Assembly: GCA_012522735.1 (NCBI GenBank)
Contig: JAAYJU010000125.1
Span: forward strand, 1 to 33,575
Direction: 5' to 3'
Origin: Clostridiales bacterium
GTDB taxonomy: Bacteria; Bacillota; Clostridia; Lachnospirales; Lachnospiraceae
Length of the DNA stretch: 33,575 nt
Part shown: piece after piece, positions 4,140-23,509 of the stretch
How positions within the stretch are numbered: the stretch's first letter is position 1
Layout: every line of letters starts with the position of its first letter
Program-made: the position numbers and the translations under genes
Notes under the pieces: model-generated
Seen by the model: the letters and a program-made list of their open reading frames with translations, nothing else
Told to the model about the DNA's origin: nothing
Databases searched by the model: none

Positions 4140-5090
4140 ATGCGCTATAAACAGCTTGGTGACAGTAATTTAAAGGTTTCTGAAATAACAGTAGGTACAT
4201 GGGCTATTGGTGGACAAGGTTGGGGTGATGTAGATAAGGAATCATCCATTGCTGCCATACGTGAGATGCTAGATAATGGTGTGAACATTATTGATACAGC
4301 ACCAATCTATGGACTCGGACATGCTGAAGAGGTTGTAGCAGAAGCCATAAAGGGCTACAAAAGAGAAGACATCATTATATCTACAAAATGCGGCCTTAGT
4401 TGGGGTGAGCAATATGCACCCGCTTATACAAAAAAGGATATGACCAGAGGAGAGGTTATTAGAGGTTGTGAAGAATCTCTTAAGCGCCTTGATACTGATT
4501 ATATTGATATTATGTTTATTCATTGGCCTGATATGGTAACTCCTATTGAGGAGCCACTAGAGGCTTTAGAGGAATTAAAGAAGCAAGGTAAAATAAGACA
4601 TATAGGCTTATCAAATTTCTCGGTGGAGGATACTGAAAAAGCTAATGGAATAACTAAGATAGCAACAATTCAACCACAATTTTCTATGGTACATCAGGGA
4701 AGTTTACCTGAGATGGAAGCTTCAAAACAGTTAGGTATTGGAACAATGACATATGGCTCCTTGGGAGCTGGTATACTTACAGGTGCATTTCGTTCACTAC
4801 CTAATTTTGAACCTAATGATACACGACTTCATTTTTATGACTTCTTCACTGAACCAAAATTTAGCAGGGTTATGAAGCTTCTTGAAAAGATGGATGTCAT
4901 AAGTAAAGAAAGAGGAGTTCCATTATCACAGATTGCAATTAACTGGAATACCCAAAACCCATTAGTTGATACAGCCTTATTAGGGGTTAGAAATGTAGAG
5001 CAGGCTAAAGAAAACTGCGCTGCAATGAAATGGAAGCTTACAGGCGAAGAGATTTCAATGCTTAATAGAGCAATTAAGGAAACGCTTTAA
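4140..5090 (+). CDS. Aldo/keto reductase
   Basis: This NAD(P)H-dependent TIM-barrel reductase acts on aldehydes or ketoses in the cytoplasm. The catalytic tetrad is complete: Asp52 and Tyr57 (IDTAPIYG), Lys83 (ISTKCG) and His128 (FIHWPD). At 316 residues it is the normal length. The strand-8 cofactor region LLGVRNVEQAKEN near the C-terminus is present. The start is set by AAGGAGG at 4128-4134. It is the first gene of the sugar operon, followed 45 bp later by the glycosidase. In this setting it may reduce the aldehyde made by the aldolase (for example glyceraldehyde to glycerol, which the glycerol kinase at the other end could use) or reduce a sugar. Substrate is inferred only. Confidence 0.92.
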   Translation: MRYKQLGDSNLKVSEITVGTWAIGGQGWGDVDKESSIAAIREMLDNGVNIIDTAPIYGLGHAEEVVAEAIKGYKREDIIISTKCGLSWGEQYAPAYTKKDMTRGEVIRGCEESLKRLDTDYIDIMFIHWPDMVTPIEEPLEALEELKKQGKIRHIGLSNFSVEDTEKANGITKIATIQPQFSMVHQGSLPEMEASKQLGIGTMTYGSLGAGILTGAFRSLPNFEPNDTRLHFYDFFTEPKFSRVMKLLEKMDVISKERGVPLSQIAINWNTQNPLVDTALLGVRNVEQAKENCAAMKWKLTGEEISMLNRAIKETL

Positions 5091-5135
5091 TGGTTTGCTT
5101 AGACTAATATAATAACATTCAAGGAGGTAATTTGC

Positions 5136-6746
5136 ATGAAAAGCATTTTTAAGGTAAACGGAAAGCCCTTTTTTACTATTGGCGGCCAAACTCATAACTC
5201 AAGTACTTATTCCGAAGATGTTATGAAAAAAGCATGGCTTGGTATTGAGGCATTGGGACTAAATACTATTGCTGCACCGATATGTTGGGGACAGATTGAG
5301 CCTGAAGAGGATTTGTTTGATTTTTCTCAGATCGATATGATTTTAGATGGTGCAAGAAAACGCAATGTAAAGGTAGTTCTTTTATGGTTTGGTACTTGGA
5401 AGAATGGAACATCTCATTATGTGCCAAAATGGGTAAAGACACAGAAAGAAAGATTTGTATGGGCTGAGACAGCACAGAACATCAGAACCAGGACATTGTC
5501 ACCTTTATGCGAAGCTACTAAAGAGGCTGATAAAAAAGCCTACCTTAAGGTGATAGAGTATCTTAAAAAAGTGAATACAGATGATGTTGTGTTATCAGTT
5601 CAAATTGAAAATGAGCCGGGATCTATCGGTACTCCAAGAGATTATTCTAAACTTGGTGAAACGGCATTTAGCAGTAATATTCCCGAGGAATTATATGATT
5701 GGCTTGAGAAGCTATCAGATTGTCCTATAAAGAGATTTTGGACAGAAAACGGCTCTCAGAAAAACGGAACATGGGAAGAGGTTTTTGGTATCGAAGCTTC
5801 CCCAATATTTACTTCATATTACACCGCTATTTATATTAACGAAATATCAAAGGCGGGTAAAGAGATATATGATATTCCTACCTATGTCAATGTATGGATA
5901 GGTGAGATGTATCAACAAATAGCCGGAGTTGATTACCCATCAGGTGGACCAACAACTAAAACTATTGACTTGTGGAAGTTCCTTACTCCTGATATTGATG
6001 CGATTTGTCCGGATATATATCTTCAGGATTATATAACATTTGATGCTCTTTGTGAAGCTTACAGCAGAGATGATAATATCTTCTACATTCCTGAATCTGC
6101 TCCTTCTGTTATGAATGCTCTTAATGTATTTATGGCTATTGAAAAACATAATCTATCAGGTATTCATACCTTTGGTATAGACTCTGTAGTAGATAAGGAT
6201 GGAGTATTACTAGAAGGAGCCAGAGAGTGGGCAAATACCGCTAAGATACTAAGCAGTGCAAGACCTTTAATAGAAAAATATCTAGGTACTGGAAAAATAT
6301 ATGCTGTTGCTCAGTTTGAAGGTTCTTCTGGTCAATCGTTTGACTTTGGTGATTACATAGGAAAAGTGACATATAGTATGCCATTGGACAAGCAATTTGC
6401 TACAAATTCATGGGGCTTTATGGATACCTATCATAGAGAACCTGAATATTTCAATGTAAGAGGTAAGGGACTAATTATATATGAAGGCAATGGTAGTTTT
6501 TATCTCGCAGGTGAGGGTTATAAGCTAGTTCTAATCAAAAAAGATACAATTGAGGGAATGACTACAGGCGTCAGGCAATCTGTATTTCTAAACACGAGAC
6601 ATCAGGAATATCTAAGTGTTTCCGAAGGATATTTTGATGAAGATGACAATTTCATTACAGTCAAAGAAAGATGTGGAGATGAATCTGATTTGGGTCTGTG
6701 GGTACACCATGATATTGGTGTGGTTCATGTACAAATGGACAATTAA
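5136..6746 (+). CDS. GH42/GH35-like glycoside hydrolase with DUF5597-type C-terminus (beta-galactosidase-like)
   Basis: This is a retaining clan GH-A hydrolase of 536 residues. The N-terminal TIM barrel shows GLNTIAAPICWGQIEPEE (about 41-58), LLWFGTWKNGTSHYVPKWV (about 82-100) and LSPLCEATKEADKKA. Two likely catalytic glutamates are Glu160 in VQIENEPGS (acid/base) and Glu320 in FYIPESAPS (nucleophile). These blocks match the proteobacterial beta-galactosidases that carry a DUF5597 domain, and the C-terminal 150 residues correspond to that beta-rich domain. There is no signal peptide or membrane segment, so it should act on imported oligosaccharides. AAGGAGG precedes the ATG, and the permease gene follows 27 bp downstream. 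Beta-galactosidase activity is a family-based inference; other beta-glycosides are possible. Confidence 0.85.
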   Translation: MKSIFKVNGKPFFTIGGQTHNSSTYSEDVMKKAWLGIEALGLNTIAAPICWGQIEPEEDLFDFSQIDMILDGARKRNVKVVLLWFGTWKNGTSHYVPKWVKTQKERFVWAETAQNIRTRTLSPLCEATKEADKKAYLKVIEYLKKVNTDDVVLSVQIENEPGSIGTPRDYSKLGETAFSSNIPEELYDWLEKLSDCPIKRFWTENGSQKNGTWEEVFGIEASPIFTSYYTAIYINEISKAGKEIYDIPTYVNVWIGEMYQQIAGVDYPSGGPTTKTIDLWKFLTPDIDAICPDIYLQDYITFDALCEAYSRDDNIFYIPESAPSVMNALNVFMAIEKHNLSGIHTFGIDSVVDKDGVLLEGAREWANTAKILSSARPLIEKYLGTGKIYAVAQFEGSSGQSFDFGDYIGKVTYSMPLDKQFATNSWGFMDTYHREPEYFNVRGKGLIIYEGNGSFYLAGEGYKLVLIKKDTIEGMTTGVRQSVFLNTRHQEYLSVSEGYFDEDDNFITVKERCGDESDLGLWVHHDIGVVHVQMDN

Positions 6747-6773
6747 CTCAATCCAAAATTTAGGAGACGAAGC

Positions 6774-7640
6774 ATGAAAAAGAAAATGAATCTAAATCAT
6801 CGAAGTATATCAAGATATGTATTTTTATTACCTGGCTTTTGTTTCTTTTCATTCGCAGTGTTAATACCCTTTTTAATGGGTGTTAACATTGCCTTTACAG
6901 ATTGGAATGGTATTACAAAAGATTATACCTATGTGTTCTTAGATAATTTCATAAGTATCTTTAAAGATACAAGAGTTTCAGCCCCAATAGCGAACTCTAT
7001 TAAATATGCGGTGCTAGGAACGGTTGGAGGTAATGTCCTATCCTTATCCCTTGCGATGTTAATAAACCATAAGACAGGTAAGTTAAGTAAGATGGCAAGA
7101 GTTATTTTTTTTACACCGGTATGTATTAGTGCAATTTTAACATCATTTTTGTGGGGCTTTATATATCGAGAAGTATTTCCACAGCTATTTGGAATAAAAA
7201 GCTTACTCGGTAATAGGACATGGGCTATTCCGGCAATCACAGCTATGGGCCTATGGAACGGTTCGGGTATAAATATGCTCATATATTTCTCGGGACTTAA
7301 AAACATACCAACTGATCTGTATGAAGCAGCTGTAGTGGATGGAGCCAATGTGTGGCAAAAGTTTAGAAAGATTACCTTACCTTTATTAACACCATCCTTT
7401 ACTGTATGTATTACATTGACTCTAACAGCATGGTTCAGAGAGTTTGCAATGACTTTGTCAGCGACCGGCGGAGGTCCGGCAGGAGCCTCACGTACTATAT
7501 CAATTTATATTTTTGAGAATCTATATGAATATTATAAAGCAGGATATGGACAGGCAGTTGCGTTACTATTTGCCTTATTCCTCGTAGTTGTAGGGTGTTC
7601 TGTATCGAGGTTTTTCCGTAAGAGGGAGGTGGAATTATAG
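6774..7640 (+). CDS. Sugar ABC transporter permease (MalF/UgpA type)
   Basis: This is one of two inner-membrane channel subunits of a CUT1-type oligosaccharide importer. The 288 residues show six predicted membrane segments, beginning with VFLLPGFCFFSFAVLIPFL at 16-34. The cytoplasmic EAA loop EAAVVDGANVWQKFRKITLP is at about 184-203. After the family's first helix comes the MGVNIAFTDWNG segment that is typical of UgpA/MsmF proteins. An AGGAGACG ribosome binding site precedes the ATG. The stop codon TAG shares its G with the GTG start of the second permease, so the two are translationally coupled. The periplasm-side partner is the lipoprotein encoded at 9633. Confidence 0.95.
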   Translation: MKKKMNLNHRSISRYVFLLPGFCFFSFAVLIPFLMGVNIAFTDWNGITKDYTYVFLDNFISIFKDTRVSAPIANSIKYAVLGTVGGNVLSLSLAMLINHKTGKLSKMARVIFFTPVCISAILTSFLWGFIYREVFPQLFGIKSLLGNRTWAIPAITAMGLWNGSGINMLIYFSGLKNIPTDLYEAAVVDGANVWQKFRKITLPLLTPSFTVCITLTLTAWFREFAMTLSATGGGPAGASRTISIYIFENLYEYYKAGYGQAVALLFALFLVVVGCSVSRFFRKREVEL

Positions 7641-8500
7641 TGGAGGCTGTTATTGAGATAAAAAGGAGAAAAAAAATCAAGGTTAGTACTATAGTAGCAG
7701 CGATAATAACCATTGTATTTGTTCTTATATTTCTATTTCCCATAGTACTTGCCATACTGACCTCCTTCAAGACACCCTTGGAGACAGCCGAGTCGATATT
7801 AAGCTTACCCAAGCAAATTAATTTCAATAATTATATTGAAGGCATGAAAAGAAGTAACTTCTTTAGAGCAATGATAAACTCTTGTATAACCACATTTCCT
7901 TCTGTAGCACTAATAGTGATTTGTGCTTCTATGGGAGGATATACAATAGCAAGAAATAGTGCTGTAAGTAGAATTGTTAAATCAATGGATACTGTTTATT
8001 TAGCTTCCTTAATGATTCCATTTCAGATATTGATGATACCATTATACAAAATATATAAGACTTTACAATTGCAGAACTCATTATTTGGTATGATTCTTGT
8101 TCTCACGGGTACCAGTATAGCTTATTCCACCTTTCTTTATGTTGGATTTGCAAAATCTATACCCAAAGAGCTCGAAGAGGCTGCTTTAATTGATGGGTGC
8201 GGTCCCTATAGAGCATTTATTAAAATCGTATTTCCCTTACTAAAGCCTATAACAGCTACAGTTTCTGCACTACATATAATGTGGCTGTGGAATGATTTTA
8301 ATATGGCACTCATTATACTTCAAAAGGAAGAAATGCGTACATTAACTGTTAAGCAGTATTACTTCTTCGGAGAACATACAGCAGATTATGGAATGGCATT
8401 TGCAGCTTCGATAGTTAGTATGCTTCCGATATTATTATTCTTTATAGCGATGCAAAAGCACTTGGTTGAAGGAATTTCAGCCGGAGCAGTTAAGGCTTAA
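7640..8500 (+). CDS. Sugar ABC transporter permease (MalG/UgpE type)
   Basis: This is the second channel subunit of the CUT1 sugar importer, with 286 residues. The N-terminal helix is at about 16-41 (STIVAAIITIVFVLIFLFP onward). The MalG-type EAA loop EAALIDGCGPYRAFIKIVFP is at about 180-199, followed by the LWNDFN motif of this subfamily. Translation starts at GTG 7640, which overlaps the stop of the first permease by one base; GGGAGGTGG just upstream serves as the ribosome binding site. No ATPase gene is present in the cluster. CUT1 importers of Firmicutes often share a single MsmX/UgpC-type ATPase encoded elsewhere, so this is expected rather than a defect. Confidence 0.95.
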   Translation: MEAVIEIKRRKKIKVSTIVAAIITIVFVLIFLFPIVLAILTSFKTPLETAESILSLPKQINFNNYIEGMKRSNFFRAMINSCITTFPSVALIVICASMGGYTIARNSAVSRIVKSMDTVYLASLMIPFQILMIPLYKIYKTLQLQNSLFGMILVLTGTSIAYSTFLYVGFAKSIPKELEEAALIDGCGPYRAFIKIVFPLLKPITATVSALHIMWLWNDFNMALIILQKEEMRTLTVKQYYFFGEHTADYGMAFAASIVSMLPILLFFIAMQKHLVEGISAGAVKA

Positions 8501-8537
8501 TATGTATTAGTTACTTATAAGTATATGAGAGGAATGG

Positions 8538-9506
8538 ATGTATATGGATTACTATGACATTATAGGACTAGGAACACCAGTCAAGGATTTACTTATTACT
8601 ATAGATGATATGCCTGTAAGAGATTCTGCGATAATGATAAATGACTACAGTAGTCAAGGTGGCGGTAAGGTGAGTACAGCAATGGTGGCAGCCGCCAGAT
8701 TAGGTGCAAAGGTTTCAATGTGTGGTGTCGTTGGTAGTGATAGCAAGGGTGAATTCATTATTGAGGATTTTAAGAGACATGGCATTGATGTAAGTCATAT
8801 GGTAATAGATGAAGGAAAAACCAGTGTATACTGCCTATGTATAGCCGAGAAGGAGACTCAGACAAGAAGGTTCTTTGGTAAAGCAGGAACAGCAAGAATG
8901 CTTGCTCTTGAAGACATGGATTATGATTACCTTAAATCTGCAAAAATAATTCATGTTGAGAGCGGTAACAATGTAATAAGGAATGCAGTAGAATTTGCCA
9001 AAAAGGAAGGGGTAACTGTATCCATTGATGCAGACAATTATACAGAGGAAATAGAGAATATGGAGCATCTTATAGATATATTTATTGCTTCAGAGTTTTA
9101 TTATAAGAAAAGGTTTCCTTCCCTTAGTCATGAAGAAGGATTAGCGTGTCTAGCAGAAAAAGGATGTAAGATAGCTATCTTCACCTTGGGTTCAAGAGGC
9201 TGCGTTGGATTGTATAACAATGAATATTTTAGCTTTCCTGCATTTACAGGACTAAATATAATCGATACAACAGGAGCTGGAGATGTGTTTCATGGAGCAT
9301 ACTTATCCGCTTATCTTAAAGGAATTGATCCTAAGGAATGTGCCAGAGTTGCCAGTGCAGTCTCGGCAATAAAATGTACAAGAATAGGCGGAAGGTCCGG
9401 TATTCCTGACTGGGATATGACAAGAAGCTTTCTAGATAATAACCAAATAGTAAATGAAGAAACACTTGATAAGAGAGTGGACTTCTACAGAAGCAAGGTT
9501 TTTTGA
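8538..9506 (+). CDS. PfkB-family carbohydrate kinase
   Basis: This is a ribokinase-fold sugar kinase of about 320 residues. The N-terminal signature Gly-Gly-Gly at 41-43 (SSQGGGKVSTA) binds the sugar. The C-terminal PfkB signature DTTGAGDVFHGAY holds the catalytic base Asp249 and the anion hole. The ADP-binding TLGSRGCV strand is present. Two starts are possible: ATG 8538 lies only 4 nt after the GAGAGGA site (8527-8533), while the in-frame ATG 8544 has a more normal 10-nt spacing, so the protein may begin MDYYDIIGLG. It sits between the permease and binding-protein genes. It probably phosphorylates the ketose formed by the isomerase at 16680. Whether the phosphate goes on C1 or C6 cannot be told. 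Confidence 0.92.
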   Translation: MYMDYYDIIGLGTPVKDLLITIDDMPVRDSAIMINDYSSQGGGKVSTAMVAAARLGAKVSMCGVVGSDSKGEFIIEDFKRHGIDVSHMVIDEGKTSVYCLCIAEKETQTRRFFGKAGTARMLALEDMDYDYLKSAKIIHVESGNNVIRNAVEFAKKEGVTVSIDADNYTEEIENMEHLIDIFIASEFYYKKRFPSLSHEEGLACLAEKGCKIAIFTLGSRGCVGLYNNEYFSFPAFTGLNIIDTTGAGDVFHGAYLSAYLKGIDPKECARVASAVSAIKCTRIGGRSGIPDWDMTRSFLDNNQIVNEETLDKRVDFYRSKVF

Positions 9507-9556
9507 TAATATAAATATTAATTTTGCTCTTGTATTGGGCTACATAATAATTTAAA

Positions 9557-9586
9557 TTAAGGGTAATGAGAAACATAAACCCTTAA
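9557..9586 (+). other. Intercistronic hairpin before the binding-protein gene
   Basis: TTAAGGGT (9557-9564) pairs with ACCCTTAA (9579-9586) around a 14-nt loop, in the 126-bp gap between the kinase and binding-protein genes. No T-run follows. Such a hairpin could raise binding-protein mRNA stability relative to upstream genes (inference). Confidence 0.5.
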
Positions 9587-9632
9587 ATATAAATTGCTAT
9601 AAATCATAACATAAACTTAAGGAGGAAAAGGT

Positions 9633-10982
9633 ATGAAAAGGAAATTGTTTGTATTGCTTTTATGCTGCTTGATGATAATGAGTAGTGTATTAGTAGGATG
9701 TAAGAAATCTGATAATGGTGATGTAAACAAAACAGATGATAACAAGAAAACAGAGTCTAAAGACACAGAGTCTAAAGACACAAATTCTAAAAGTTCAGAC
9801 ACCAAAAATGAAAAAACAACTATTACATGGCTTCATCATTTCCAAGAAGCAGGCATTCAGGAATGGTTGAATACTGTTGTTAAAACTTTTACGGAAGCTA
9901 ATCCGGATGTTGAAGTTCTTGTTGAAGTTGCTGGTGCAGACAACTACTCACAATTATTAAAAACAAAAATTGCATCAGATGATGCCCCTATGATATTTGA
10001 CTTATCAAATATTAGAGAATATCAAAATTATGTAGAAGCAGATCACCTTTATGATATTGGCGGCTTTGATTGCATAGCTGATATTGAGCCTGCTATGCTT
10101 CCAGCCGGACAGTATAATGGTGTCCAATATGGCATTCCTATCGATCAAACAGCATTTTGCGTGACCTATAATGAAGAAATCTTCAACGAGCTTAATTTGC
10201 AGGTTCCTACTACTATTTCTGAGATGCATGATGTATGCCAGAAATTAATTGATAATGGATATGATCCGTTTAACGCATCTATGGCTGAACAGTGGTGCAT
10301 GAATATTAATTATAATGTAATCTTAAGTCCATATTGCTTGATGGATGATAAGCAGTGGTATGTTGATAAGATGAACCTTACATCAAACTTCTCTGATGAT
10401 GAGAATTTTAAAAAAGCCTTTGAAACATTTGCAGGTTTGAAGCCTTACTGGGGCAATGATCCATTTGGTACTACCTGGGATGCAGAGCAGAATGCTTTAG
10501 CTGCTAAGAAAAGTGCTATGGTAGTAAATGGTTCTTGGACAGTTGATGGTGTCATGGGTAAAAACCCTGATATGAGCTTAAGAATCTTTGCTATGCCATC
10601 TTCGGAAGATCCTAAAGATGCTACTATGGTTATGAATGCAGGAAGTCAGTTGGTAGTCTATAATAGCTCAGATCCCGATAAGCTGGATGCAGCAGAAAGA
10701 CTATATAATCATATATATTCGCAAGAATCTGGTAAGCTTTTTGCAGATTTAGCATTTAGAATGTCGACAGTAAAAGGCGTAGACCTTACAGGCTCAGCCG
10801 CTATGAACGATATTGGTGTATATCCTGATGACCAGGTTTACATGTCAATGGGAGTAGAGACATTCACAGGAGAGTATGCTACCTTATTCCTTGACACAGT
10901 TCAGGGTCATCTGATGGAAAGTACATTTGATGTTGATGCTATGGCAAAAGCACTTGACAAAGCCTTTTCTGCTATTCAATAA
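9633..10982 (+). CDS. Extracellular sugar-binding lipoprotein of the ABC importer
   Basis: This is a family 1 solute-binding protein of 449 residues that captures sugars outside the cell and delivers them to the two permeases. A lipoprotein signal peptide is clear: basic MKRK, a hydrophobic stretch 5-19, and the lipobox LVGC with Cys23 as the lipidated residue. Residues 24-65 form a Lys/Asp/Ser/Thr-rich linker that includes a repeated ESKDT unit. The mature domain starts near TITWLHHFQEAG and contains the family blocks GVQYGIPIDQTAFCVTYN and KKSAMVVNGSWTVDG. AAGGAGG lies at 9619-9625. The ligand is probably an oligosaccharide, given two intracellular glycosidases in the same operon. Confidence 0.94.
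   Translation: MKRKLFVLLLCCLMIMSSVLVGCKKSDNGDVNKTDDNKKTESKDTESKDTNSKSSDTKNEKTTITWLHHFQEAGIQEWLNTVVKTFTEANPDVEVLVEVAGADNYSQLLKTKIASDDAPMIFDLSNIREYQNYVEADHLYDIGGFDCIADIEPAMLPAGQYNGVQYGIPIDQTAFCVTYNEEIFNELNLQVPTTISEMHDVCQKLIDNGYDPFNASMAEQWCMNINYNVILSPYCLMDDKQWYVDKMNLTSNFSDDENFKKAFETFAGLKPYWGNDPFGTTWDAEQNALAAKKSAMVVNGSWTVDGVMGKNPDMSLRIFAMPSSEDPKDATMVMNAGSQLVVYNSSDPDKLDAAERLYNHIYSQESGKLFADLAFRMSTVKGVDLTGSAAMNDIGVYPDDQVYMSMGVETFTGEYATLFLDTVQGHLMESTFDVDAMAKALDKAFSAIQ
9750..9794 (+). repeat. 15-bp tandem repeat encoding the lipoprotein linker
   Basis: Two identical copies of ACAGAGTCTAAAGAC (9750-9764 and 9765-9779) are followed by a degenerate third (9780-9794). They encode TESKD units in the linker after the lipidated cysteine, where length variation should be tolerated. 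Confidence 0.8.
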
Positions 10983-10998
10983 TCAATATTCTTATTCA

Positions 10999-11073
10999 GG
11001 GGGACTGGTTCTATTGAGTAAGTGCGCTTTATGCATAATAAGCATAAAAACACTAAAACAGAAGCAGTCCTCC
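10999..11073 (+). other. Nested RNA hairpins between the binding-protein and glycosidase genes
   Basis: The outer stem pairs GGGGGACTG (10999-11007) with CAGTCCTCC (11065-11073), 9 bp with one G-U pair. The inner stem pairs TTTATGC (11028-11034) with GCATAAA (11042-11048). The downstream TTATTGTATT is only moderately T-rich. It may be a partial terminator or a processing and stability element that lowers glycosidase expression relative to the binding protein. Confidence 0.5.
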
Positions 11074-11111
11074 TTATTGTATTAATTCATCATAGAACGG
11101 AGGTATACATA

Positions 11112-13151: not shown

Positions 13152-13889
13152 CTAAAGATTAAAAAGTAACTTAAATTCTGCAATATAAGATCTACTTACG
13201 GGTATTTCTTCATCACTACCCTTAATGCGTATATTATAAGTTGAGTTGAACATTGGATAAATAGATTCAACCTTGTTGATATTAATTAGATAACCTCGGT
13301 GACATCTATACCAACCGAAGCCCTTGAGCTTATCTTCCCAGTAGTTCATGTTGTGCTTCAATATGTATTCACAGTTTTGTGTGTGCAGAAGAATATCTCG
13401 CTGCATGATTTTAATGAATAACCCATCACTTGAATCTGTAACGACATATCTATTCTTATATAAACCTGTTATCTTAACAACATCCTTATCATCTTTCTGG
13501 TCTGTTGTATCTACTTGTGTAATGGATGAATTTATATGATGACAAAGCTTATCTATTGTACGCTTAAGCTTAGATGTAGTTACAGGCTTTAATATATAGT
13601 CAAAAGCATTAACTCTAAATGCGTCGAGGGCATATATATCATAAGCCGTTATAAATACTGTTTTAATATTTGGATTGATATTATATGCCTTTTCGGCCAT
13701 CTCCATTCCATTCACATTAGGCATAGCAATATCAACAAAAATAGCATCTATATAAAGCTTGCCTAGCTGTTCAACTGCATCCAGTGAGTTTGTCGTCTCG
13801 TAAACAATTTCGATTTCTGAAAACTGCTTTAAAATGTACTTTAGATTATCGAGAACTAACTGTTCGTCATCAACTATCATTATCTTCAT
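13152..13889 (-). CDS. LytTR-family response regulator
   Basis: This two-component response regulator binds DNA through a LytTR domain. The receiver domain spans about 1-120, with acidic residues in MIVDDEQ, phosphoacceptor Asp53 (AIFVDIAMPN), Thr82 region (VFITAYD) and Lys102 (YILKPV), all intact. The LytTR domain covers about 145-245 and has the typical GWYRCHRGYLININKVESI core and the VSRSY ending. AAAGGAG lies just upstream on the minus strand. It is 19 bp downstream of the LytS-type kinase gene and surely its partner. It probably controls the flanking sugar genes, as LytS/LytTR pairs next to carbon-source genes often do, though no LytTR direct repeats could be identified by eye. Confidence 0.94.
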   Translation of the reverse strand: MKIMIVDDEQLVLDNLKYILKQFSEIEIVYETTNSLDAVEQLGKLYIDAIFVDIAMPNVNGMEMAEKAYNINPNIKTVFITAYDIYALDAFRVNAFDYILKPVTTSKLKRTIDKLCHHINSSITQVDTTDQKDDKDVVKITGLYKNRYVVTDSSDGLFIKIMQRDILLHTQNCEYILKHNMNYWEDKLKGFGWYRCHRGYLININKVESIYPMFNSTYNIRIKGSDEEIPVSRSYIAEFKLLFNL

Positions 13890-16519: not shown

Positions 16520-16547
16520 TTGTACAATATAAATTTACACATATAAT
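16520..16547 (+). promoter_or_regulatory. Rightward promoter for the isomerase operon
   Basis: -35 TTGTAC (16520-16525), a 16-bp spacer, -10 TATAAT (16542-16547). The start is expected near 16554, giving a leader of about 125 nt. It fully overlaps the leftward kinase promoter. Confidence 0.6.
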
Positions 16548-16576
16548 ATTATATATTAAAATTTTATATGAGTCAA
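16548..16576 (-). promoter_or_regulatory. Leftward promoter for the sensor kinase and response regulator
   Basis: On the minus strand, -35 TTGACT (plus-strand 16571-16576), a 17-bp spacer, -10 TATAAT (plus-strand 16548-16553). This is a near-consensus sigma-A promoter about 80 bp before the kinase start. Confidence 0.7.
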
Positions 16577-16607
16577 GCAAATAAGCCCTTTGAGCAAGGG
16601 CTCATAT
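16566..16607 (+). other. Hairpin in the isomerase operon leader
   Basis: ATATGAG (16566-16572) can pair with CTCATAT (16601-16607), and inside it AGCCCT (16584-16589) with AGGGCT (16597-16602). The two stems share two bases, so they compete partly. No T-run follows. It lies in the transcribed leader, 57 bp before the ribosome binding site. Confidence 0.45.
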
Positions 16608-16679
16608 GCACAAAAAACTATAAAAATAGATGTATTTACTGTGTCTTTTTTTATGAATATGACAAGGAGGATGTGCCCT

Positions 16680-18119
16680 ATGATTACTTTTCAAAAACCA
16701 AAATTTAAATTAGGTGTTGCTCCAACAAGGAGAGATATGTGGTTCAATCAGCATACCACAGATAATAAGAATGCTATTATGAACTTAATGAATAAGTTTT
16801 CTGAAAAATATGATTTTGAGTTAGTTACTATTGAGGGATTAGAGTTTGAAGATAAGACATTTACCTTCGGTAGTAGAACTATTCATGTAGATGCTGATGA
16901 TTTTATGACTGATTATGCTGATGCCAAGTTAATTGCTACATATTTTAAGGAGCAGGAGATTAATGCTTTATTTGTTCCATTCTGTAATTTTGGTCAGGAA
17001 GACGCCGTAGCAAGACTAGCATATGAACTTAAACTTCCTACATTACTTTGGGGTGCTAGAGATGTTGCACCAGAGGGATTAGGGATGAGACCAACAGATA
17101 CACAATGCGGTATGTTTGCATGTAGTAAAGTACTGTTAAGATATGGTGTTAAATTTACATATATAGAAAATTGTCACATAAGTGATGATGTATTTGAAAA
17201 GGACTTTGAGAAGTTCTTGAGTGTAGCCCGTGTCGTAAATAGTTTTAATAATCTACGTATTGGGCAGATAAGTGTTAGACCACAACAGTTTTTGAGTGTG
17301 ATGGTTAATGAAGCAGAATTGCTTGAAAAATTCGGCATAGAGTTGGTAACTATATCAGGAACAGAGTTGGTCAATGTTATTAATGGTATTATAGAAAACG
17401 AGCAGGATCAAATAGATGAATTGGTTGCAGATATTGAAAAAACTCTTGATCTATCACAGCTTAAGGATAAGAAAAAAACTGTGGCAGCTATTGAGCTTGG
17501 ATTTATGAAAATTGCCAAAAAGTATGGATGCAATGCACTTGCTAGTGATTGTTGGCATGTAATAAGGAATGCATTTGGTGTAGCTCCTTGTTTCATATTT
17601 GGTGATTTGCATGATAGAGGACTTCCTACTGCATGTGAGCTTGACATTCATGCGGCTATAGTTAGTGTAATGGCTACTGCGGCTACTGCTTATAAAGAAC
17701 CTGCTTTTGTAGCTGATCTTACATTACGTCACCCTCAAAAGGATAATGTAGAGCTACTGTGGCACTGCGGTCCATTTGCTAAGGCATTGAAAAAAGAAGG
17801 CGTTAATGGATATGTAGTTGAGGGTGGACAAGGATTCTACCCATTAAAACATGGAGATCTTACAGTACTTAGATTTGATGGACTTAATGGCGATTATAGT
17901 TGCTTTGTTGGTGTAGGTAAATCTATTGAGGGTCCTGAGACTAACGGTAATTATGTATGGCTTGAGGTAGATGACTGGGTTAAATGGGAGAAGAAATTCA
18001 TATATGGACCCTATATACATCATGTTGTAGGATTATTTGGAGACTACTCAGAGGTATTTAAAGAGGCTTGTAGATATATCGGTATTAATTATGATACTCC
18101 AGAGCTCCCCCTATTTTAA
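16680..18119 (+). CDS. L-fucose/L-arabinose isomerase-family protein
   Basis: This predicted cytoplasmic aldose-ketose isomerase has 479 residues. It shows the FucI/AraA-like organisation: an N-terminal Rossmann-like domain, a middle domain, and a C-terminal metal-dependent part. Recognisable blocks are VAAIELGFMKIAKKYGCNALASDCW and the LPTACELDIHAAI segment that resembles the FucI-type PxxCExDxxGA motif (Glu metal ligand), plus HCGPFAK. I chose ATG 16680 because AAGGAGG lies at 16664-16670, nine bases upstream; in-frame starts at 16590 and 16671 lack suitable spacing. It is the first gene of the rightward operon. Enzymes of this superfamily can isomerise D-galactose to D-tagatose, but fucose, arabinose or another sugar is possible. 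Confidence 0.85.
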   Translation: MITFQKPKFKLGVAPTRRDMWFNQHTTDNKNAIMNLMNKFSEKYDFELVTIEGLEFEDKTFTFGSRTIHVDADDFMTDYADAKLIATYFKEQEINALFVPFCNFGQEDAVARLAYELKLPTLLWGARDVAPEGLGMRPTDTQCGMFACSKVLLRYGVKFTYIENCHISDDVFEKDFEKFLSVARVVNSFNNLRIGQISVRPQQFLSVMVNEAELLEKFGIELVTISGTELVNVINGIIENEQDQIDELVADIEKTLDLSQLKDKKKTVAAIELGFMKIAKKYGCNALASDCWHVIRNAFGVAPCFIFGDLHDRGLPTACELDIHAAIVSVMATAATAYKEPAFVADLTLRHPQKDNVELLWHCGPFAKALKKEGVNGYVVEGGQGFYPLKHGDLTVLRFDGLNGDYSCFVGVGKSIEGPETNGNYVWLEVDDWVKWEKKFIYGPYIHHVVGLFGDYSEVFKEACRYIGINYDTPELPLF

Positions 18120-18154
18120 TATAAATGTTTTAGTAAGGCCAAGTACTATGGAAT

Positions 18155-18193
18155 ATACACACGATATATCTGTTTTAATATCGTGTGTATAAT
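18155..18193. promoter_or_regulatory. Long inverted repeat with a TATAAT in its right arm (operator-like)
   Basis: ATACACACGATAT (18155-18167) pairs perfectly with ATATCGTGTGTAT (18178-18190) around a 10-nt spacer; one more T-A pair extends it. TATAAT at 18188-18193 overlaps the right arm. No T-run follows and no good -35 is seen. It may be an operator at an internal promoter or an mRNA hairpin between the isomerase and aldolase genes. Confidence 0.55.
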
Positions 18194-18252
18194 TCTGAAC
18201 TCTATAAGTTTTATTACAGATATTAATTTATATACAGAAAGGACGTTCAATT

Positions 18253-19101
18253 ATGGCACTTGAAAAGGTTAGAGATATATTAAAAGAAGCTGATCAGAAT
18301 AAAACAGCTATACTTGCATTTGATGCCTTTGATTATAACACTATTTATGCAGCTATTAAAGGAGCAGGGGCGGTTAACAAACCTATAATAATTATGCTTT
18401 ATCCATCAATGAACAAAATAATATCCTTAGGTACTTTTGCTGCAACAGTTAAGGATATTGCTAGAGAGGTAAGTGTTCCAGTAGGTCTTCATCTTGATCA
18501 TTGTAGTGACTATGATTTTATTATCACCGCTATAAGAGAAGGCTTTACTTCGGTAATGGCAGATGGATCTTCACTTCCTTTTGTTGATAATATTAGTTTT
18601 ACTAATAGTGTTGTTAAAACGGCTAAAATTTTTGATGTAGATGTAGAGGGTGAGTTGGGTATGGTTGGAGTGGCAGCAAATACAGATGATTATTTTAATA
18701 CTGACAAATATACAACTCCCGAGCAAGCACAAATTTTTGCTAGCGAAACCGGAGTCGCTTCTCTTGCAATAGCAATTGGTAGTGCACATGGTGTATATAA
18801 GGAAGAACCTAAATTAGATATTGAAAGGCTTAAGGAGATAGATGCTGCTACTAGTGTACCACTAGTACTACATGGAGGTAGTGGTATTCCAGAAAAGCAA
18901 TTAATTGAAGCTTTTAAGAATGGTATTAACAAATTCAATATCGGTACAGAATTTTTTGCATTAACTGCTAAATTATCTAAGGACTTCTACAATGATTCTC
19001 AATTATCAGCTAATCCATTAGCTTCTTATTCTTATATACGTGAAAACCTACAAAAGTATATTGAAGATAAATTAGTGCTTACAACTATGACATGTAGATA
19101 A
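18253..19101 (+). CDS. Class II ketose (bis)phosphate aldolase (FbaA/GatY type)
   Basis: This zinc-dependent aldolase of 282 residues cleaves a phosphorylated ketose to DHAP and an aldehyde. Catalytic Asp82 and zinc ligand His83 lie in VGLHLDHCSD. The second metal and loop region reads VEGELGMVG. Further zinc ligands are expected in GSAHGVY and VLHGGSGIP, and the phosphate loop reads NKFNIGTEF. The size and motifs place it with FBA, tagatose-bisphosphate aldolases GatY/KbaY and related enzymes. Strict identification of the substrate is not possible. AAAGGACG precedes the ATG, though the gap from the isomerase gene is 133 bp with an inverted repeat. Its partner genes here, an isomerase and a PfkB kinase, imply a ketose-phosphate from the imported sugar rather than glycolytic FBP. 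Confidence 0.92.
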   Translation: MALEKVRDILKEADQNKTAILAFDAFDYNTIYAAIKGAGAVNKPIIIMLYPSMNKIISLGTFAATVKDIAREVSVPVGLHLDHCSDYDFIITAIREGFTSVMADGSSLPFVDNISFTNSVVKTAKIFDVDVEGELGMVGVAANTDDYFNTDKYTTPEQAQIFASETGVASLAIAIGSAHGVYKEEPKLDIERLKEIDAATSVPLVLHGGSGIPEKQLIEAFKNGINKFNIGTEFFALTAKLSKDFYNDSQLSANPLASYSYIRENLQKYIEDKLVLTTMTCR

Positions 19102-19134
19102 TCAAAACAATTACTTAAGATTGGATGTGTACAC

Positions 19135-20394
19135 ATGGAACAATTAAGCAACAAAGGATTTAAAAGTATGGCTATAATACTTATTGCAACAAATACTTTG
19201 GTATATATATCAAGTTCTTTATATGCACCATTTTTAGGAGCGTATTATACGGAAAGGGGAGTAACTGCCTCGGAAATAGGTATACTTATGGCAATAGGTC
19301 CCCTGATTGCCATACTAATTCAGCCTTTATGGGCTGGGCTTAGTGACAGGACAGGTCGTAGAAAGGATGTACTATCACTAATAATTCTGGGTTGTGCAAT
19401 CTCCATCAATTCATATTATTTAGGCAATAATTTCTTTGGATATTTTATAGCCACTATATTATTTACCATATTTTCAACATCAATGGTACCTTTAAGCGAT
19501 GCCATTCTGGTGGATCTATCGGAGAAGATAAAATTTAAGTTTTCTTATGTTAGATTAGGAGGTACGTTAGGCTATGCTTTAACTGTTTATATTGCAGGTA
19601 GGGTTTTAAAATATTATCCTTCAGCATTGTTTGCGATGGCATCCATAAGCTATCTAATTATGATGTTCGTAGTCAGAAGATTACCTAGTAAAGAGAGAGA
19701 AAACAGTCTAGGTGGGTCAGGTCAAAAACCTTTAGATATTGAGGAAGTTGAAGAAGCTAGACATGAAAAAAGGACTAAGAGAGAACGTAGTAGGATATTT
19801 ATGAATAACGATATTGTATTTGTATTGCTTTTTGCCTTTGTAACCCATTTGGGCTTATATTTTGGAATAGGATTTATGGGTGTATACTTAATTGAATTAG
19901 GCTATGATCAATCAATTATTGGTATGCTAAATACAATATCTGCATTAAGTGAGGTACCAATTCTACTTTGCATACATAAGCTTATAAAAAGATTTGGCAC
20001 TATGAGAATTATAGCTTTTTCTGGTATTATGGCAGGAGTAAGAATATTACTTATTTCTGGTGGTTCTCTTCCAACAATCATTATTTCACAGATGCTCCAA
20101 AGCGTAACTTATATGACAACTTATTACTGTTCTGTGACATATATCAATCAAAATGTGGAACCAATGCATCGTTCTAAAGGCCAGGGAATACTAACAATCA
20201 CTCAGGCGGGCTTAGGAAGTATAATGGGAATGATTTTAGGTGGACGAGTTATAGAGGCTATTGGTATGCGTCAATCCTACATAGTGGTGGGATGTGTGAT
20301 TGTAGGAGTATCCTTTGTTACTATTCTTATTTATATAATTTATAATAAGCTTAGATCTAGAAATTTGATTAATGAAATGGAGAATATAAAATGA
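19135..20394 (+). CDS. MFS transporter (MFS_1-like / NHS-LacY-like)
   Basis: This 12-helix secondary transporter has 419 residues. Membrane segments begin at about residue 13, and loop 2-3 carries GLSDRTGRRKD, the classic MFS signature. A polar central loop at about 185-222 (rich in Arg, Lys, Glu) separates the two six-helix halves. The family relates to sugar or nucleoside proton symporters. The annotated ATG 19135 has no clear ribosome binding site; in-frame ATG 19168 follows AAAGGA (19153-19158) at a good distance, so the protein may be 11 residues shorter. It lies between the aldolase and the cupin, which it overlaps by 4 bp. It could take up free monosaccharide alongside the ABC importer, or export a product. 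Confidence 0.88.
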   Translation: MEQLSNKGFKSMAIILIATNTLVYISSSLYAPFLGAYYTERGVTASEIGILMAIGPLIAILIQPLWAGLSDRTGRRKDVLSLIILGCAISINSYYLGNNFFGYFIATILFTIFSTSMVPLSDAILVDLSEKIKFKFSYVRLGGTLGYALTVYIAGRVLKYYPSALFAMASISYLIMMFVVRRLPSKERENSLGGSGQKPLDIEEVEEARHEKRTKRERSRIFMNNDIVFVLLFAFVTHLGLYFGIGFMGVYLIELGYDQSIIGMLNTISALSEVPILLCIHKLIKRFGTMRIIAFSGIMAGVRILLISGGSLPTIIISQMLQSVTYMTTYYCSVTYINQNVEPMHRSKGQGILTITQAGLGSIMGMILGGRVIEAIGMRQSYIVVGCVIVGVSFVTILIYIIYNKLRSRNLINEMENIK

Positions 20395-20906
20395 GAAAAA
20401 TAAATGTGCAGAAACTAACAATTGAAAATTTTAAAAGATATGGAACTTTTCAAAACCTTTTAGATGTTGAGGCCTTGGCAGTGACATCAATTGTGTCATC
20501 AATTGATGCGAGCTTTTTCCCTGATTTAGTATCATTTGATTATGGTAATACAATAAATCCAACCGTTTCAATATGCCTAGCAAAAAAAACAGAAAAAAAT
20601 ATAGTTCAGTTCTTAGAGTATCACCAGTATACTAATGAAGGGCTTATTCCTCTGGATGGAGACATTATAATATGTGTTGGAACACCTCCGCTCTATGGAA
20701 AGATGTCAGTGGATAATTTAGAGGCCTTCTTAATTCCTAAAGGAACTCTAGTAAAGCTTAATGCATATATAGTCCATGGACCACAGTTTTCTGTTGATAC
20801 AGATAAAGTGCATGTAGTGTGTATGCTAGCAGGTAGAACCTTTAAAAATGATATGGTTTTTGAACTATTTCAAAATGACGATGATAAGGCCGTAATAGAG
20901 CTATAA
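20391..20906 (+). CDS. Small AllA-like (ureidoglycolate lyase-fold) cupin, DUF4867-like
   Basis: This 171-residue cytoplasmic protein has no signal or membrane segment. Three blocks resemble ureidoglycolate lyase AllA: LTIENFKRYG near the N-terminus, VQFLEYHQYTNEGLIPLDGDIIICV in the middle, and LEAFLIPKGTLVKLNAYIVHGPQF near 120-145. They follow the same order and spacing as AllA, which implies a bicupin-like barrel with a metal site around the conserved histidines (YHQY and VHGP). No purine or allantoin genes are near, so ureidoglycolate is an unlikely substrate. It overlaps the MFS stop by 4 bp (ATGA), so the two are coupled, and the aldose 1-epimerase follows. A sugar isomerase, epimerase or binding role is plausible but unproven. 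Confidence 0.7.
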   Translation: MRKINVQKLTIENFKRYGTFQNLLDVEALAVTSIVSSIDASFFPDLVSFDYGNTINPTVSICLAKKTEKNIVQFLEYHQYTNEGLIPLDGDIIICVGTPPLYGKMSVDNLEAFLIPKGTLVKLNAYIVHGPQFSVDTDKVHVVCMLAGRTFKNDMVFELFQNDDDKAVIEL

Positions 20907-20932
20907 ACCATCAGTGGATCTAGGAGGTAGTT

Positions 20933-21985
20933 ATGTATATAGAACAGAAAAATTTTGGCTACTTAAGTAATGGTGACGAAGTAATCCTGTATAAGCTAAG
21001 TAATTCAAATGGTATAACTGTTGATATAATTTCTCTTGGAGGAATCATTAAGAGTATTGTATTACCTGACAAGAATAAAGAGCTTGCAGATGTTGTGCTT
21101 GGACAAGACTCACTTACAGACTATCTTACTAGACCCGCGTGTTCTGGAGCTATTATAGGGAGATGTGCAAATCGAATTTCAGGAGGAGCATATACTTATA
21201 ATGATAAGGTAATTGAACTGGAAAAAAACTATGGTAGTGACACCTTACATAGCGCAAGTGGATGCTATGCCATGAAAAATTTTGTAGGAGAAACCTTTAT
21301 TGAAGCAGATAGGATAGGAGTAATATTATATCTGAAAGACGATGGTGAAGGTGGCTTTCCGGGATGCGTAGAATTATGGGTTACTTATAGTTTAGATAAA
21401 GAAGGAAGGCTGTCAATACATTATAAGGCTGTGCCTTCTGAAGATACTGTTATTAATATAACCAATCATGCTTATTTTAATTTAGCAGGAGATTCTTCGG
21501 GACCAATCAATAATCATATACTAAAGCTAGAAGCGGATTATTATCTTCCTAATGATAAGAGAGGAATGCCAACAGGTGAAATATTGAAGGTTAATAAAAC
21601 ACCTTTAGATTTTATAGATGAAAAGCCTATTGGAAGAGAAATAAACTCAGTTTATACTCAGATTGCTTTGTTTGGTGGTTATGATCATAGCTACTGTATT
21701 AGGGGGAGAGGGCTTAGAAAGGCAGCTACAGTTATGCATAAGGAAAGCGGTAGGACCATGGTTGTATATACTGACCTTCCGGCTTTACAGTTTTATACGG
21801 CTAATATGTTACCAGAAAACTTTCTTGGTAAGAATGGTGCTGTATATAAGAGGCATCAAGGCTTTTGTCTTGAAACGCAGCATTACCCTAATGCTGTAAA
21901 TTATTCACAGTTTCCTAGCCCCTTTTATAAGGCAGGTGAGGTGTTTGACTCTCAAACCATTTTCCGCTTTTTTGTGAAGGAATGA
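20933..21985 (+). CDS. galM: Aldose 1-epimerase (galactose mutarotase)
   Basis: This enzyme interconverts alpha and beta anomers of galactose, glucose and related aldoses in the cytoplasm. Its 350 residues are the usual length. It shows the NRISGGAYTYN substrate loop, a catalytic His179 in NITNHAYFNLAG, His106 in TLHSAS, GGYDHSYC, and the C-terminal GFCLETQHYPNAVN block, which holds the general-base Glu. AGGAGG lies at 20922-20927. In this operon it would supply the right anomer to the isomerase after the glycosidases release their sugar, and it is one of the reasons to suspect a galactose-type substrate. Confidence 0.94.
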   Translation: MYIEQKNFGYLSNGDEVILYKLSNSNGITVDIISLGGIIKSIVLPDKNKELADVVLGQDSLTDYLTRPACSGAIIGRCANRISGGAYTYNDKVIELEKNYGSDTLHSASGCYAMKNFVGETFIEADRIGVILYLKDDGEGGFPGCVELWVTYSLDKEGRLSIHYKAVPSEDTVINITNHAYFNLAGDSSGPINNHILKLEADYYLPNDKRGMPTGEILKVNKTPLDFIDEKPIGREINSVYTQIALFGGYDHSYCIRGRGLRKAATVMHKESGRTMVVYTDLPALQFYTANMLPENFLGKNGAVYKRHQGFCLETQHYPNAVNYSQFPSPFYKAGEVFDSQTIFRFFVKE

Positions 21986-22012
21986 AATTGACTTAAGGAG
22001 GAGGAACTGATT

Positions 22013-23509
22013 ATGAAGCAGTATGTTATGGCACTGGATCAGGGGACAACCAGTTCAAGATGTATCATATATGACAGACAAGGTAAAATCTGTAGTGTTG
22101 GGCAGAAGGAGATTAAGCAGTATTATCCTCAATCGGGCTGGGTGGAACATGATCCTCTTGAAATATGGAATAGTCAGATTAATGTTGCTAAGCAAGCCAT
22201 GGAAAAGATTAATATTACAGCAGATAATATAGCTGCCATAGGTATTACAAATCAAAGAGAAACTACTGTTGTATGGGATAAAAGATCAGGTAAGCCTATA
22301 TATAATGCAATTGTTTGGCAGTGTAGAAGAACTGCATATATGATAGATGAATTAACTAAGGATGGCTATGGTGAGTATATTAAAAAGACAACAGGCTTAA
22401 TCCCTGATGCATATTTTTCAGCTAGTAAATTAAAATGGATTCTTGATAGGATAGATGGAGCAAGAGAAGAGGCAAGTAGAGGAAATCTACTATTTGGTAC
22501 AATTGAAACATGGCTCATATGGAATCTTACAAATGGTAAATCATTTGTTACTGATTATTCTAATGCATCAAGAACTATGCTTTTTGATATATACAAACTA
22601 AACTGGGATAAGGAGCTACTTAAGAAAAATGATATTCCCGAGGAAATGCTACCTACCCCAAGACCTTCAAGTTGCATATACGGTTATACTGATAAAGAGA
22701 TATTTGGTGGTGAAATTCCGGTATCCGGAGCGGCAGGGGACCAACAAGCGGCTCTTTTTGGACAGTGCTGTTTTGAAGCTGGAGATACAAAGATTACATA
22801 TGGAACAGGTGGATTCCTTCTGTCTAATCAAGGAAAGAATCCTATTATTTCGAATTCGGGCCTTATTACAACAATTGCGGCTAGCAAACCAAATGAAGTG
22901 AAATATGCTCTTGAAGGAAGTATATTTATGGCAGGAGCATCGGTTCAATGGCTTAGAGATGAATTACGTCTAATAAATAGTGCAGAAGAAACTGAGAGCT
23001 TGGCATTGTCGGTAAATGACACCAATGGGGTATATTTAGTACCTGCATTTACTGGTATTGGGGCACCGTATTGGAATCCATATGGAAGAGGAACTATAGT
23101 TGGATTAACTAGAGGTACAAAAAAAGAACATTTTACAAGAGCTGTTTTAGAATCTATTGCATACAGAGTCAATGACGTGATTATGGCTATGGAGAATGAT
23201 ACAGGAAAAAAGATAAATAAGCTTAAAGCTGATGGTGGAGCCTCATCTAATAGATTTCTTATGCAATTTCAATCTGATATCAGTAATATTGGCGTGTATC
23301 GTCCAAAGAGTATTGAAACAACCTCATTAGGCGCCGCATATCTAGCAGGCTTAGCTGTTGGCTATTGGGATAATACTGAGGAACTAAAAGAAAATTCAAA
23401 ATTGTATGATGTTTTTAATCCTCAGATGGAAGGGGATAAAGCCGCTAATTTACTTAAAGGATGGAATAAAGCAATAAATACTGCAATACATTGGTCAGAA
23501 AACAAATAG
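22013..23509 (+). CDS. glpK: Glycerol kinase
   Basis: This FGGY kinase converts glycerol to sn-glycerol 3-phosphate in the cytoplasm. Its 498 residues match GlpK. Family hallmarks are complete: [13 protein letters not shown] at the N-terminus, [11 protein letters not shown] (glycerol-binding Arg/Glu), [24 protein letters not shown] (catalytic Asp), TYGTGGF, and [32 protein letters not shown] lies at 21995-22004. No glpF or glpD is seen nearby, unlike a normal glycerol operon. The setting at the end of a sugar operon, with an aldolase and an aldo/keto reductase, suggests it may salvage glycerol made from glyceraldehyde. DHA or another triose could also be phosphorylated. Confidence 0.95.

Follow-up and report, generated by a model that had tools for sequence, protein, structure and literature searches.

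The closest described systems to the locus analysed here, which occupies positions 4140 to 23509 of a 33,575 nt stretch of Clostridiales DNA (contig JAAYJU010000125.1; hereafter the window), are the sulfo-Embden-Meyerhof-Parnas pathways of sulfoglycolysis (sulfo-EMP and sulfo-EMP2, formed by YihS/YihV/YihT and SqvD/SqvB/SqiK/SqiA respectively), the Escherichia coli ydj cluster, the tagatose pathways LacABCD and GatYZ, and the D-apiose transketolase pathway. L-fucose and L-rhamnose are likewise catabolised by means of a 1-kinase paired with a 1-phosphate aldolase. The ydj cluster presumably acts on long-chain uronate-type sugars, and we take it to have neither an AraA-fold isomerase nor glycosidases; the enzymes of the D-apiose pathway were reportedly the subject of a study by Carter et al. 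The D-apiose genes have been described as the kinase aplK, the transketolases aptA and aptB and the isomerase apsI (PMC13001218). The parts of sulfo-EMP2 include a class II aldolase, the AllA-like SqvB and a PfkA-type kinase, SqiK (PMC9594981), whilst kin of SqvB and DUF4867 occur in sulfoglycolytic and other ketose clusters, including some in which PF02952 proteins stand with FGGY kinases, their function being left undetermined there (PMC11968277).

The window comes from a genome assembled as 2.82 Mb in 259 contigs and estimated to be 92% complete. Two plus-strand blocks of genes (4140 to 13121 and 16680 to 23509) flank a minus-strand LytS/LytTR-type two-component system (Table 1). The locus is real, conserved and coherent, and we put at roughly 60% the probability that it encodes the import and cleavage of a glycoside, followed by catabolism of the released aldose through a ketose-1-phosphate route. 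A protein related to glycoside hydrolase (GH) family 35 and another related to clan GH-D would free the aldose, which GalM, and perhaps a cupin, would supply in the right form to a metal-dependent isomerase of the AraA fold. The resulting ketose would be phosphorylated at carbon 1 by a PfkB-family kinase and cleaved by a class II aldolase to dihydroxyacetone phosphate (DHAP) and an aldehyde, the proposed substrate of an aldo-keto reductase (AKR). Were the ketose an ordinary hexulose, this aldehyde would be glyceraldehyde, and its reduction to glycerol, with phosphorylation to glycerol-3-phosphate by the GlpK of the operon, would account for the presence of both AKR and GlpK. Each of these reactions we infer from gene content, fold, family relations and co-occurrence.

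Comparison with described pathways

The likeness to sulfo-EMP and sulfo-EMP2 extends to a FucI-superfamily isomerase, a kinase near to YihV, a class II aldolase, a SqvB/AllA-like cupin and an aldehyde-reducing enzyme; however, the window isomerase falls in a clade of its own and differs in its pocket residues, the kinase is of PfkB rather than PfkA type, the residues presumed to bind sulfonate in YihV are not kept, and there is no sulfoquinovosidase (GH31) in the locus. The AKR, kinase and aldolase form the same trio of families as YdjG, YdjH and YdjI, of which the latter two are among the PDB matches of the window kinase and aldolase. Unlike the ydj cluster, the window has an AraA-fold isomerase and glycosidases, and the AKR scores 193 bits against the 550 bit cut-off of its best NCBIfam model, NF049922 (YdjG). 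The tagatose pathways share a class II aldolase of the GatY/KbaY superfamily and galactose-type glycosidases with this locus, whereas LacA/LacB, a kinase scoring at the level of LacC and a DPRK-type aldolase motif are absent from it, and isomerisation is proposed to occur on the free sugar. The window clade has as its closest branch the transketolase-linked isomerases, probably of the D-apiose pathway, which are 38-44% identical with the same compared pocket residues, but the window has an aldolase and a PfkB kinase, and no transketolase among the locus proteins.

The proposed route is built of distant relatives of sulfoquinovose-degrading enzymes, apparently for another sugar. A wider interpretation, which we advance only tentatively, is that an undescribed and widespread route runs parallel to sulfoglycolysis but acts on a sugar that bears no sulfonate. 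Its isomerases would constitute a new AraA-fold family, marked by an invariant pocket of its own, and would feed either a YihV-like 1-kinase, a class II ketose-1-phosphate aldolase and a reductase or, in a sister branch that is probably the D-apiose pathway, a split transketolase, such that EMP-like and transketolase-like versions would both exist, as they do in sulfoglycolysis; in this genome, a dedicated GlpK would allow the C3 aldehyde to be salvaged by way of glycerol. Among titles and the opening lines of abstracts in the open-licence literature, we recognised no description of a PfkB/class II aldolase/AraA-fold cluster. If true, this would be a recurrent sugar pathway in several phyla, the first committed enzyme of which has no assigned substrate; assigning one would aid the annotation of numerous clusters (a relative of the isomerase is encoded in 434 stretches, though not every one lies within a cluster of this kind), offer an isomerase of free sugars that could be tried in making rare ketoses, and reveal how a pathway for another sugar uses kinase and aldolase parts resembling those of sulfoglycolysis.

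Kinase, aldolase and fate of the aldehyde

The window kinase alone had the sulfofructose 1-kinase YihV (7ag6) as its best PDB match, at 120 bits, and a profile of ten cluster kinases scored 172 bits against YihV, compared with 137 for ribokinase, 132 for YdjH and 118 for ketohexokinase. Two related clusters (L034 and L047) hold the 'prokaryotic ketohexokinase' family PF25270. From this kinship with YihV and ketohexokinase alone we infer specificity for position 1. The aldolase retains the class II core, yet the motif [DN]PR[KYFRW] was found in the C-terminal part of none of 47 cluster aldolases (the window's included, four being short fragments), whereas the class II fructose-bisphosphate aldolases 7ncc and 4to8 read DPRK at that position, the arginine of which we take to bind the C6 phosphate. 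The PDB matches of the aldolase are non-discriminating, with top scores of 148, 144, 143, 142 and 141 bits. Since the nearest solved kinase is YihV and the cluster aldolases lack a DPRK-type motif, a ketose-1-phosphate is on balance favoured over a 1,6-bisphosphate as the aldolase substrate. An earlier description of the window, made from its sequence and open reading frames alone (the preliminary description), had wondered whether the single PfkB kinase pointed in this direction, a doubt that the same two observations support.

The GlpK, at 699 bits, exceeds the TIGR01311 equivalog cut-off of 590 bits, and its gene starts 27 bp past that of GalM. The genome has a second GlpK on another contig (C237; L135 6923-8449), 66% identical to the window copy, beside which no glycerol facilitator was recognised by eye. 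In two related loci (L090 and L100), the isomerase and aldolase adjoin another kind of dehydrogenase-like protein, which by eye resembles an iron-containing alcohol dehydrogenase.

Isomerase fold and placement

The predicted structure of the isomerase, with a mean predicted local distance difference test score (pLDDT) of 94, firmly indicates the AraA/FucI fold, in agreement with the preliminary naming of the enzyme as FucI/AraA-like. Residues E327, D353, H369 and H455, presumably the metal-ligand set of these isomerases, are identical in all 71 grouped isomerase rows and are also among the invariant columns of a 41-sequence alignment. The gene probably starts at ATG 16680 and not TTG 16590, because an aaggagg motif lies at 16664-16670. 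Database records call its kin the 'L-fucose/L-arabinose isomerase family'.

In a tree of 72 rows, selected from the available loci, the nearest rows to the window isomerase were from Lachnospiraceae, and five of the 30 rows linked to an aldolase or kinase fell outside the window's 30-row clade. The isomerases of the sister branch (L037, L040, L175-L177, L183 and L185) stand with a split transketolase and a GlpK-like FGGY kinase; in Monoglobus pectinilyticus this set lies beside an RbsABC-type importer, and in three genomes, all from a single genus, the operon also encodes a PF13204 apiosidase. PF13204 was matched at 1e-10 in 14 of the 27 genomes with a close isomerase, with over 200 bits in 11, and in none of five genomes with transketolase-linked loci (G001, G050, G131, G190 and G208). 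The sister branch is probably the D-apiose pathway, ApsI being a possible member of this isomerase family. An ordinary retro-aldol cleavage of apulose cannot yield DHAP, and so another sugar is the likely substrate of the window branch.

Two different isomerases of the clade occur in each of three single loci (L115, with one at 11744-13132; L081, with one at 15387-16772; and L094), which suggests that there is more than one substrate. Isomerases among the closest to that of the window (56-61% identical) were found with no labelled kinase or aldolase nearby in L055 (9980-11425), L056 (9986-11425) and L115 (2781-4241); they adjoin a gene that by eye resembles a sugar-1-phosphate nucleotidyltransferase and, in L055 and L115, also an RNase H-like gene recognised in the same way. 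A relative 40% identical was found in a record of Listeria monocytogenes (L184; 2.9 Mb, filed as a plasmid and almost unannotated).

Unity of the two blocks

Diplocloster modestus and D. agilis (L057 and L058) each have an operon encoding, in order, the AKR, isomerase, aldolase, GH35-type protein, two permeases, PfkB kinase and extracellular sugar-binding protein; adjacent genes overlap or lie no more than 32 bp apart. These operons adjoin an opposite-strand response regulator (49% identical) and sensor kinase (37-38% identical), such that the core common to the window and Diplocloster comprises ten genes; the GH-D-like protein, the major facilitator superfamily (MFS) transporter, cupin, GalM and GlpK are accessory. 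Because the genes of both blocks are carried in one operon in these species, the split blocks of the window can be regarded as one functional unit, as had been supposed when they were described as a pathway divided around a two-component system. A Roseburia metagenome-assembled genome (L079) also has the sensor kinase, regulator, GH35, permeases, sugar-binding protein, MFS transporter, AKR, isomerase, PfkB kinase, cupin and GalM in a cluster, with small unlabelled frames between them.

The two-component system, the presence of which had been noted from the outset, probably controls both blocks. Its sensor kinase has an N-terminus that appears hydrophobic by eye, a HisKA-like stretch, a receiver and a LytS-type core, and Pfam sees the N-terminal HisKA-like stretch weakly in the two Diplocloster kinases. 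A search of three intergenic stretches for repeats that might serve as LytTR sites found one 9 nt pair only.

Recurrence in other genomes

A scan of species genomes with the isomerase alignment confirmed 434 stretches, of which the best 80 were kept, representing 79 loci. These are chiefly from Lachnospiraceae and other Clostridia, but also from spirochaetes, Chloroflexota, Thermotogae, a planctomycete and a Lentisphaeria bacterium; no relative was found in viral contigs. Within the window's order, isomerase matches at 1e-15 or better occurred in 129 of 295 genomes, and 27 rows besides the window scored at least 330 bits, followed by a fragment at 242 bits and then scores of 130 bits or below. 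Mapping the neighbours of the closest homologues, a check put forward in the preliminary description, revealed a gene labelled as aldolase or PfkB kinase no more than 9 kb from the isomerase and on its strand in 57 of the 79 loci, with an aldolase in 47, a PfkB kinase in 44 and both in 35. The same 57 include 24 with an AKR, 16 with an MFS transporter, 15 with a cupin and 14 with GalM, as well as GH35 (six), GH2 (six), GH27-like (two), GH4 (two) and GH5 (two) proteins. These labels are best BLAST hits at E values up to 1e-5, some being loose (22-27% identity), and many contigs end early. A census of neighbouring families covered 78 sequences, 76 of them from 142 unlabelled neighbours, and considered the 25 commonest of 80 families.

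Lachnospiraceae, Oscillospiraceae, spirochaetes and Chloroflexota all include bearers of the module, the accompanying glycosidases of which vary, relatives carrying sulfatases and GH116, DUF2961, GH97, GH43, GH13, GH2, GH4 and GH5 proteins. Seven Eisenbergiella-type loci (L060, L061 and L063-L067) have sulfatases beside the aldolase, kinase and isomerase set, several together with DUF2961, hinting at a sulfated or furanosidic substrate. The GH4 protein of L047 is nearest to 6-phospho-beta-glucosidases and then to an alpha-galacturonidase.

A number of these observations weigh against the ketose-1-phosphate route, or against its later steps. PfkB-family proteins also include 6-kinases; the comparison of aldolase motifs has only two reference sequences in which DPRK is present; and TIGR00167, the model of the 'ketose-bisphosphate aldolase' subfamily, is narrowly passed by the aldolase of the window (218.2 bits against a cut-off of 215.6), although this is a broad model that does not settle the substrate. 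An AKR-labelled gene is near only 24 of the 57 related isomerases, a GlpK-labelled gene is near none of them (one, L076, has another FGGY kinase), and no gene of the Roseburia locus is labelled as an aldolase. No measured activity turned up for any member of the window isomerase clade. Furthermore, the neighbouring glycosidases and sulfatases differ between relatives, and hence one common sugar is not implied; different members of the module may serve different sugars.

Candidate substrates and alternative explanations

The GH35-type protein scores 427 bits against the cut-off of 500 for NF051902, and 27.9 bits against 27 for the Pfam GH35 family. Its best PDB match is the beta-galactosidase 8z47 (E value 3e-84), with the motifs IENE and IPES, which we take to be catalytic, aligning with PENE and IPEA; the protein is the DUF5597 enzyme of the preliminary description, and we propose that it is of beta-galactosidase type. 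The GH-D-like protein has a single Pfam match, to Melibiase_C (PF17801; 24.0 bits against 22.9), and in the PDB it weakly resembles a GH27 beta-L-arabinopyranosidase (E value 0.0057). An AlphaFold model from three sequences was poor (pLDDT 46), and Foldseek matched it to an alpha-galactosaminidase and a beta-L-arabinopyranosidase of GH-D type, among others, with TM-scores of about 0.2. The likeness to clan GH-D, and to alpha-galactosidases as in the preliminary description, is drawn from the marginal Melibiase_C and weak GH27 matches only. It was matched in none of the other 289 genomes in a 290-genome sample of the order; two homologues were found among the available loci (L062 and L087), both within the same module. 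GalM exceeds the cut-off of the 'galactose-1-epimerase' model NF008277 (246 bits against 240), but not that of TIGR02636 (277 against 398). The nearness of the GH35-type protein to beta-galactosidases, the GH-D-like protein, this GalM score and the AraA fold make a galacto-configured sugar (galactose, D-fucose or L-arabinose) our first guess; beside L-arabinose and D-fucose, the substrate may be a different hexose or a sugar modified at position 6.

Within the ketose-1-phosphate route, one tentative version has a 6-deoxy hexose or pentose (D-fucose, D-quinovose, L-arabinose or alike) yielding lactaldehyde or glycolaldehyde, which the AKR would reduce to a diol, GlpK being unrelated. The YdjG-like reductase, the absence of GlpK-labelled genes near the 57 relatives and the resemblance to the kinase and aldolase pattern of L-fucose and L-rhamnose catabolism are consistent with this, but not the position of glpK just 27 bp from the GalM gene in the window operon, nor the locus itself, in which no gene known as 6-deoxysugar-specific was seen.

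Somewhat less probable, and on the whole unlikely, is the conversion of D-galactose to D-tagatose and a tagatose phosphate, in parallel with or replacing the Leloir pathway; its tagatose-1-phosphate form would be another case of the ketose-1-phosphate route. The AraA fold of the isomerase, the GH35-type and GH-D-like proteins, the GalM score, the passing of TIGR00167 by the aldolase and the failure to find galT speak for such a pathway, and the AKR and GlpK would finish the tagatose-1-phosphate branch via glycerol. The preliminary description proposed this pathway on seeing no galK, galT or galE, which is true of the locus; elsewhere in the genome, however, there is a galE (contig C240, 462 bits) and a galK, cut by the end of contig C31 after 204 codons. 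No galT was found in the genome with PF01087 or TIGR01239, though in this 92% complete assembly it could lie at the contig break inside galK; as the contig breaks within that gene, the Leloir pathway may be complete. The models for tagatose-6-phosphate kinase (NF010033; 18.6 bits against 469), tagatose kinase (67 against 420) and tagatose-bisphosphate aldolase (the equivalog TIGR01858; 208 against 444) are all matched far below their cut-offs, and relatives lie beside sulfatases, GH116, DUF2961, GH2, GH4, GH5 or GH97. Of the earlier proposal, a route of isomerase, kinase and class II aldolase that glycosidases and an importer supply is supported, but galactose and tagatose as its substrates, as stated, are not.

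Sulfoglycolysis of a sulfo-EMP or sulfo-EMP2 type, acting on sulfoquinovose or another sulfosugar through SqvD/SftI-, YihV- and SqiA-like enzymes and SqvB, with the AKR as sulfolactaldehyde reductase, is not our preferred reading, despite the isomerase, kinase and cupin each pointing to it; the scores relative to cut-offs, the tree and the pocket residues speak against it, and we consider it improbable. The sole NCBIfam match of the isomerase is SftI (NF048012), but at 87 bits against an equivalog cut-off of 700, which is passed in none of 290 genomes of the order; the SftI-like tier, reaching at most 419 bits, comprises 20 rows, which a branch 2.92 changes per column in length splits from the window clade with support of 100/100, and R25, E114, Q149, R357 and H358 of the window isomerase are different in all 20. 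Although the nearest solved kinase is a sulfofructose kinase, K27, N109 and R138 of YihV, which we take to contact the sulfonate, face A31, either F112 or K115, depending on the alignment, and S142 in the window kinase, and columns 31, 112 and 142 have no conserved K, N or R among 42 cluster kinases, the window's included. No GH31 is present among the locus proteins, and in tblastn searches with six queries one was found in only four of the 79 related loci; GH31 occurs somewhere in 40 of 47 relatives' genomes (searched from 50 of the 57 loci), which is uninformative on the cluster. The class II aldolase and the AllA-like cupin of the locus both have counterparts in sulfo-EMP2, but the kinase of that pathway is PfkA-type (PMC9594981).

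Finally, a transporter and a mutarotase are encoded within the isomerase block itself, and the isomerases of L055, L056 and L115 have no labelled kinase or aldolase in the available stretch, but the chance flanking of the two-component system by two unrelated operons is very improbable given the tight Diplocloster operons and the proximity of genes from both blocks in Roseburia.

Features of the locus and its surroundings

The families of the PfkB kinase, class II aldolase and GalM named in the preliminary description were confirmed by profile matches, and its sugar importer lacking an ATPase corresponds to two CUT1-type permeases and a binding protein, with no ATPase in the block. All of the genes it named are real, but it left unnamed the AKR, MFS transporter, cupin and GlpK within the same range. 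The cupin also matches PF16161 at 21 bits, below the cut-off of 28.7. The start of the GH-D-like protein is likelier to be at about 11112.

Table 1. Coordinates of features in the window, with the evidence for each
Feature	Position	Strand	Evidence
Terminator-like hairpin, readable on both strands	3892..3915		Consensus scan; between AKR block and upstream malic enzyme
Aldo-keto reductase (AKR), YdjG-like	4140..5090	+	Pfam PF00248, 259 bits
GH35-type glycosidase with DUF5597, proposed beta-galactosidase type	5136..6746	+	NF051902; PDB 8z47
ABC sugar permease, UgpA/MalF type	6774..7640	+	PF00528; 69-70% identical in Diplocloster
ABC sugar permease, UgpE/MalG type	7640..8500	+	PF00528; 69-70% identical in Diplocloster
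PfkB-family kinase, proposed ketose 1-kinase	8538..9506	+	PF00294, 153 bits; PDB YihV
Extracellular sugar-binding protein	9633..10982	+	PF13416/PF01547
Clan GH-D-like protein (alpha-galactosidase/beta-L-arabinopyranosidase-like), 699 residues	11022..13121	+	PF17801, 24 bits
LytTR response regulator	13152..13889	-	PF00072 and PF04397
Membrane sensor kinase, LytS-type	13909..16467	-	His_kinase and HATPase, receiver
Aldose isomerase, AraA/FucI fold, unassigned family	16680..18119	+	Fold; mechanical open reading frame from TTG 16590
Class II aldolase, proposed ketose-1-phosphate aldolase	18253..19101	+	PF01116, 258 bits
MFS sugar transporter, LacY/MFS_1-like	19135..20394	+	Family match
AllA/SqvB-like cupin (ureidoglycolate lyase/DUF4867 kin)	20391..20906	+	PF04115, 28.5 bits, cut-off 23
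Aldose 1-epimerase GalM	20933..21985	+	PF01263, 249 bits
Glycerol kinase GlpK, proposed glycerol salvage	22013..23509	+	TIGR01311, 699 bits

Downstream of the aldolase, the genes of the second block are spaced by 33 bp or less, or overlap. The consensus scan found four terminator-like sites, compared with 8.7 expected from shuffled sequence, and a promoter scan gave 93 sites against 96 expected. At 1513-3864, upstream of the hairpin, a dehydrogenase of the Ldh_2 family adjoins the malic enzyme; its best model is 'L-sulfolactate dehydrogenase', at 266 bits and under the cut-off of 500, and it was excluded from the pathway because the malic enzyme and terminator-like hairpin intervene. The second block is followed by a nitroreductase and then by a rimP-nusA-rnpM-ylxQ-infB-rbfA-nrnA-truB-ribF group, in which the N-terminal part of infB, encoding a 1080 residue IF-2, has a GC content of up to 0.467 and a strong AT skew (26001-28000).

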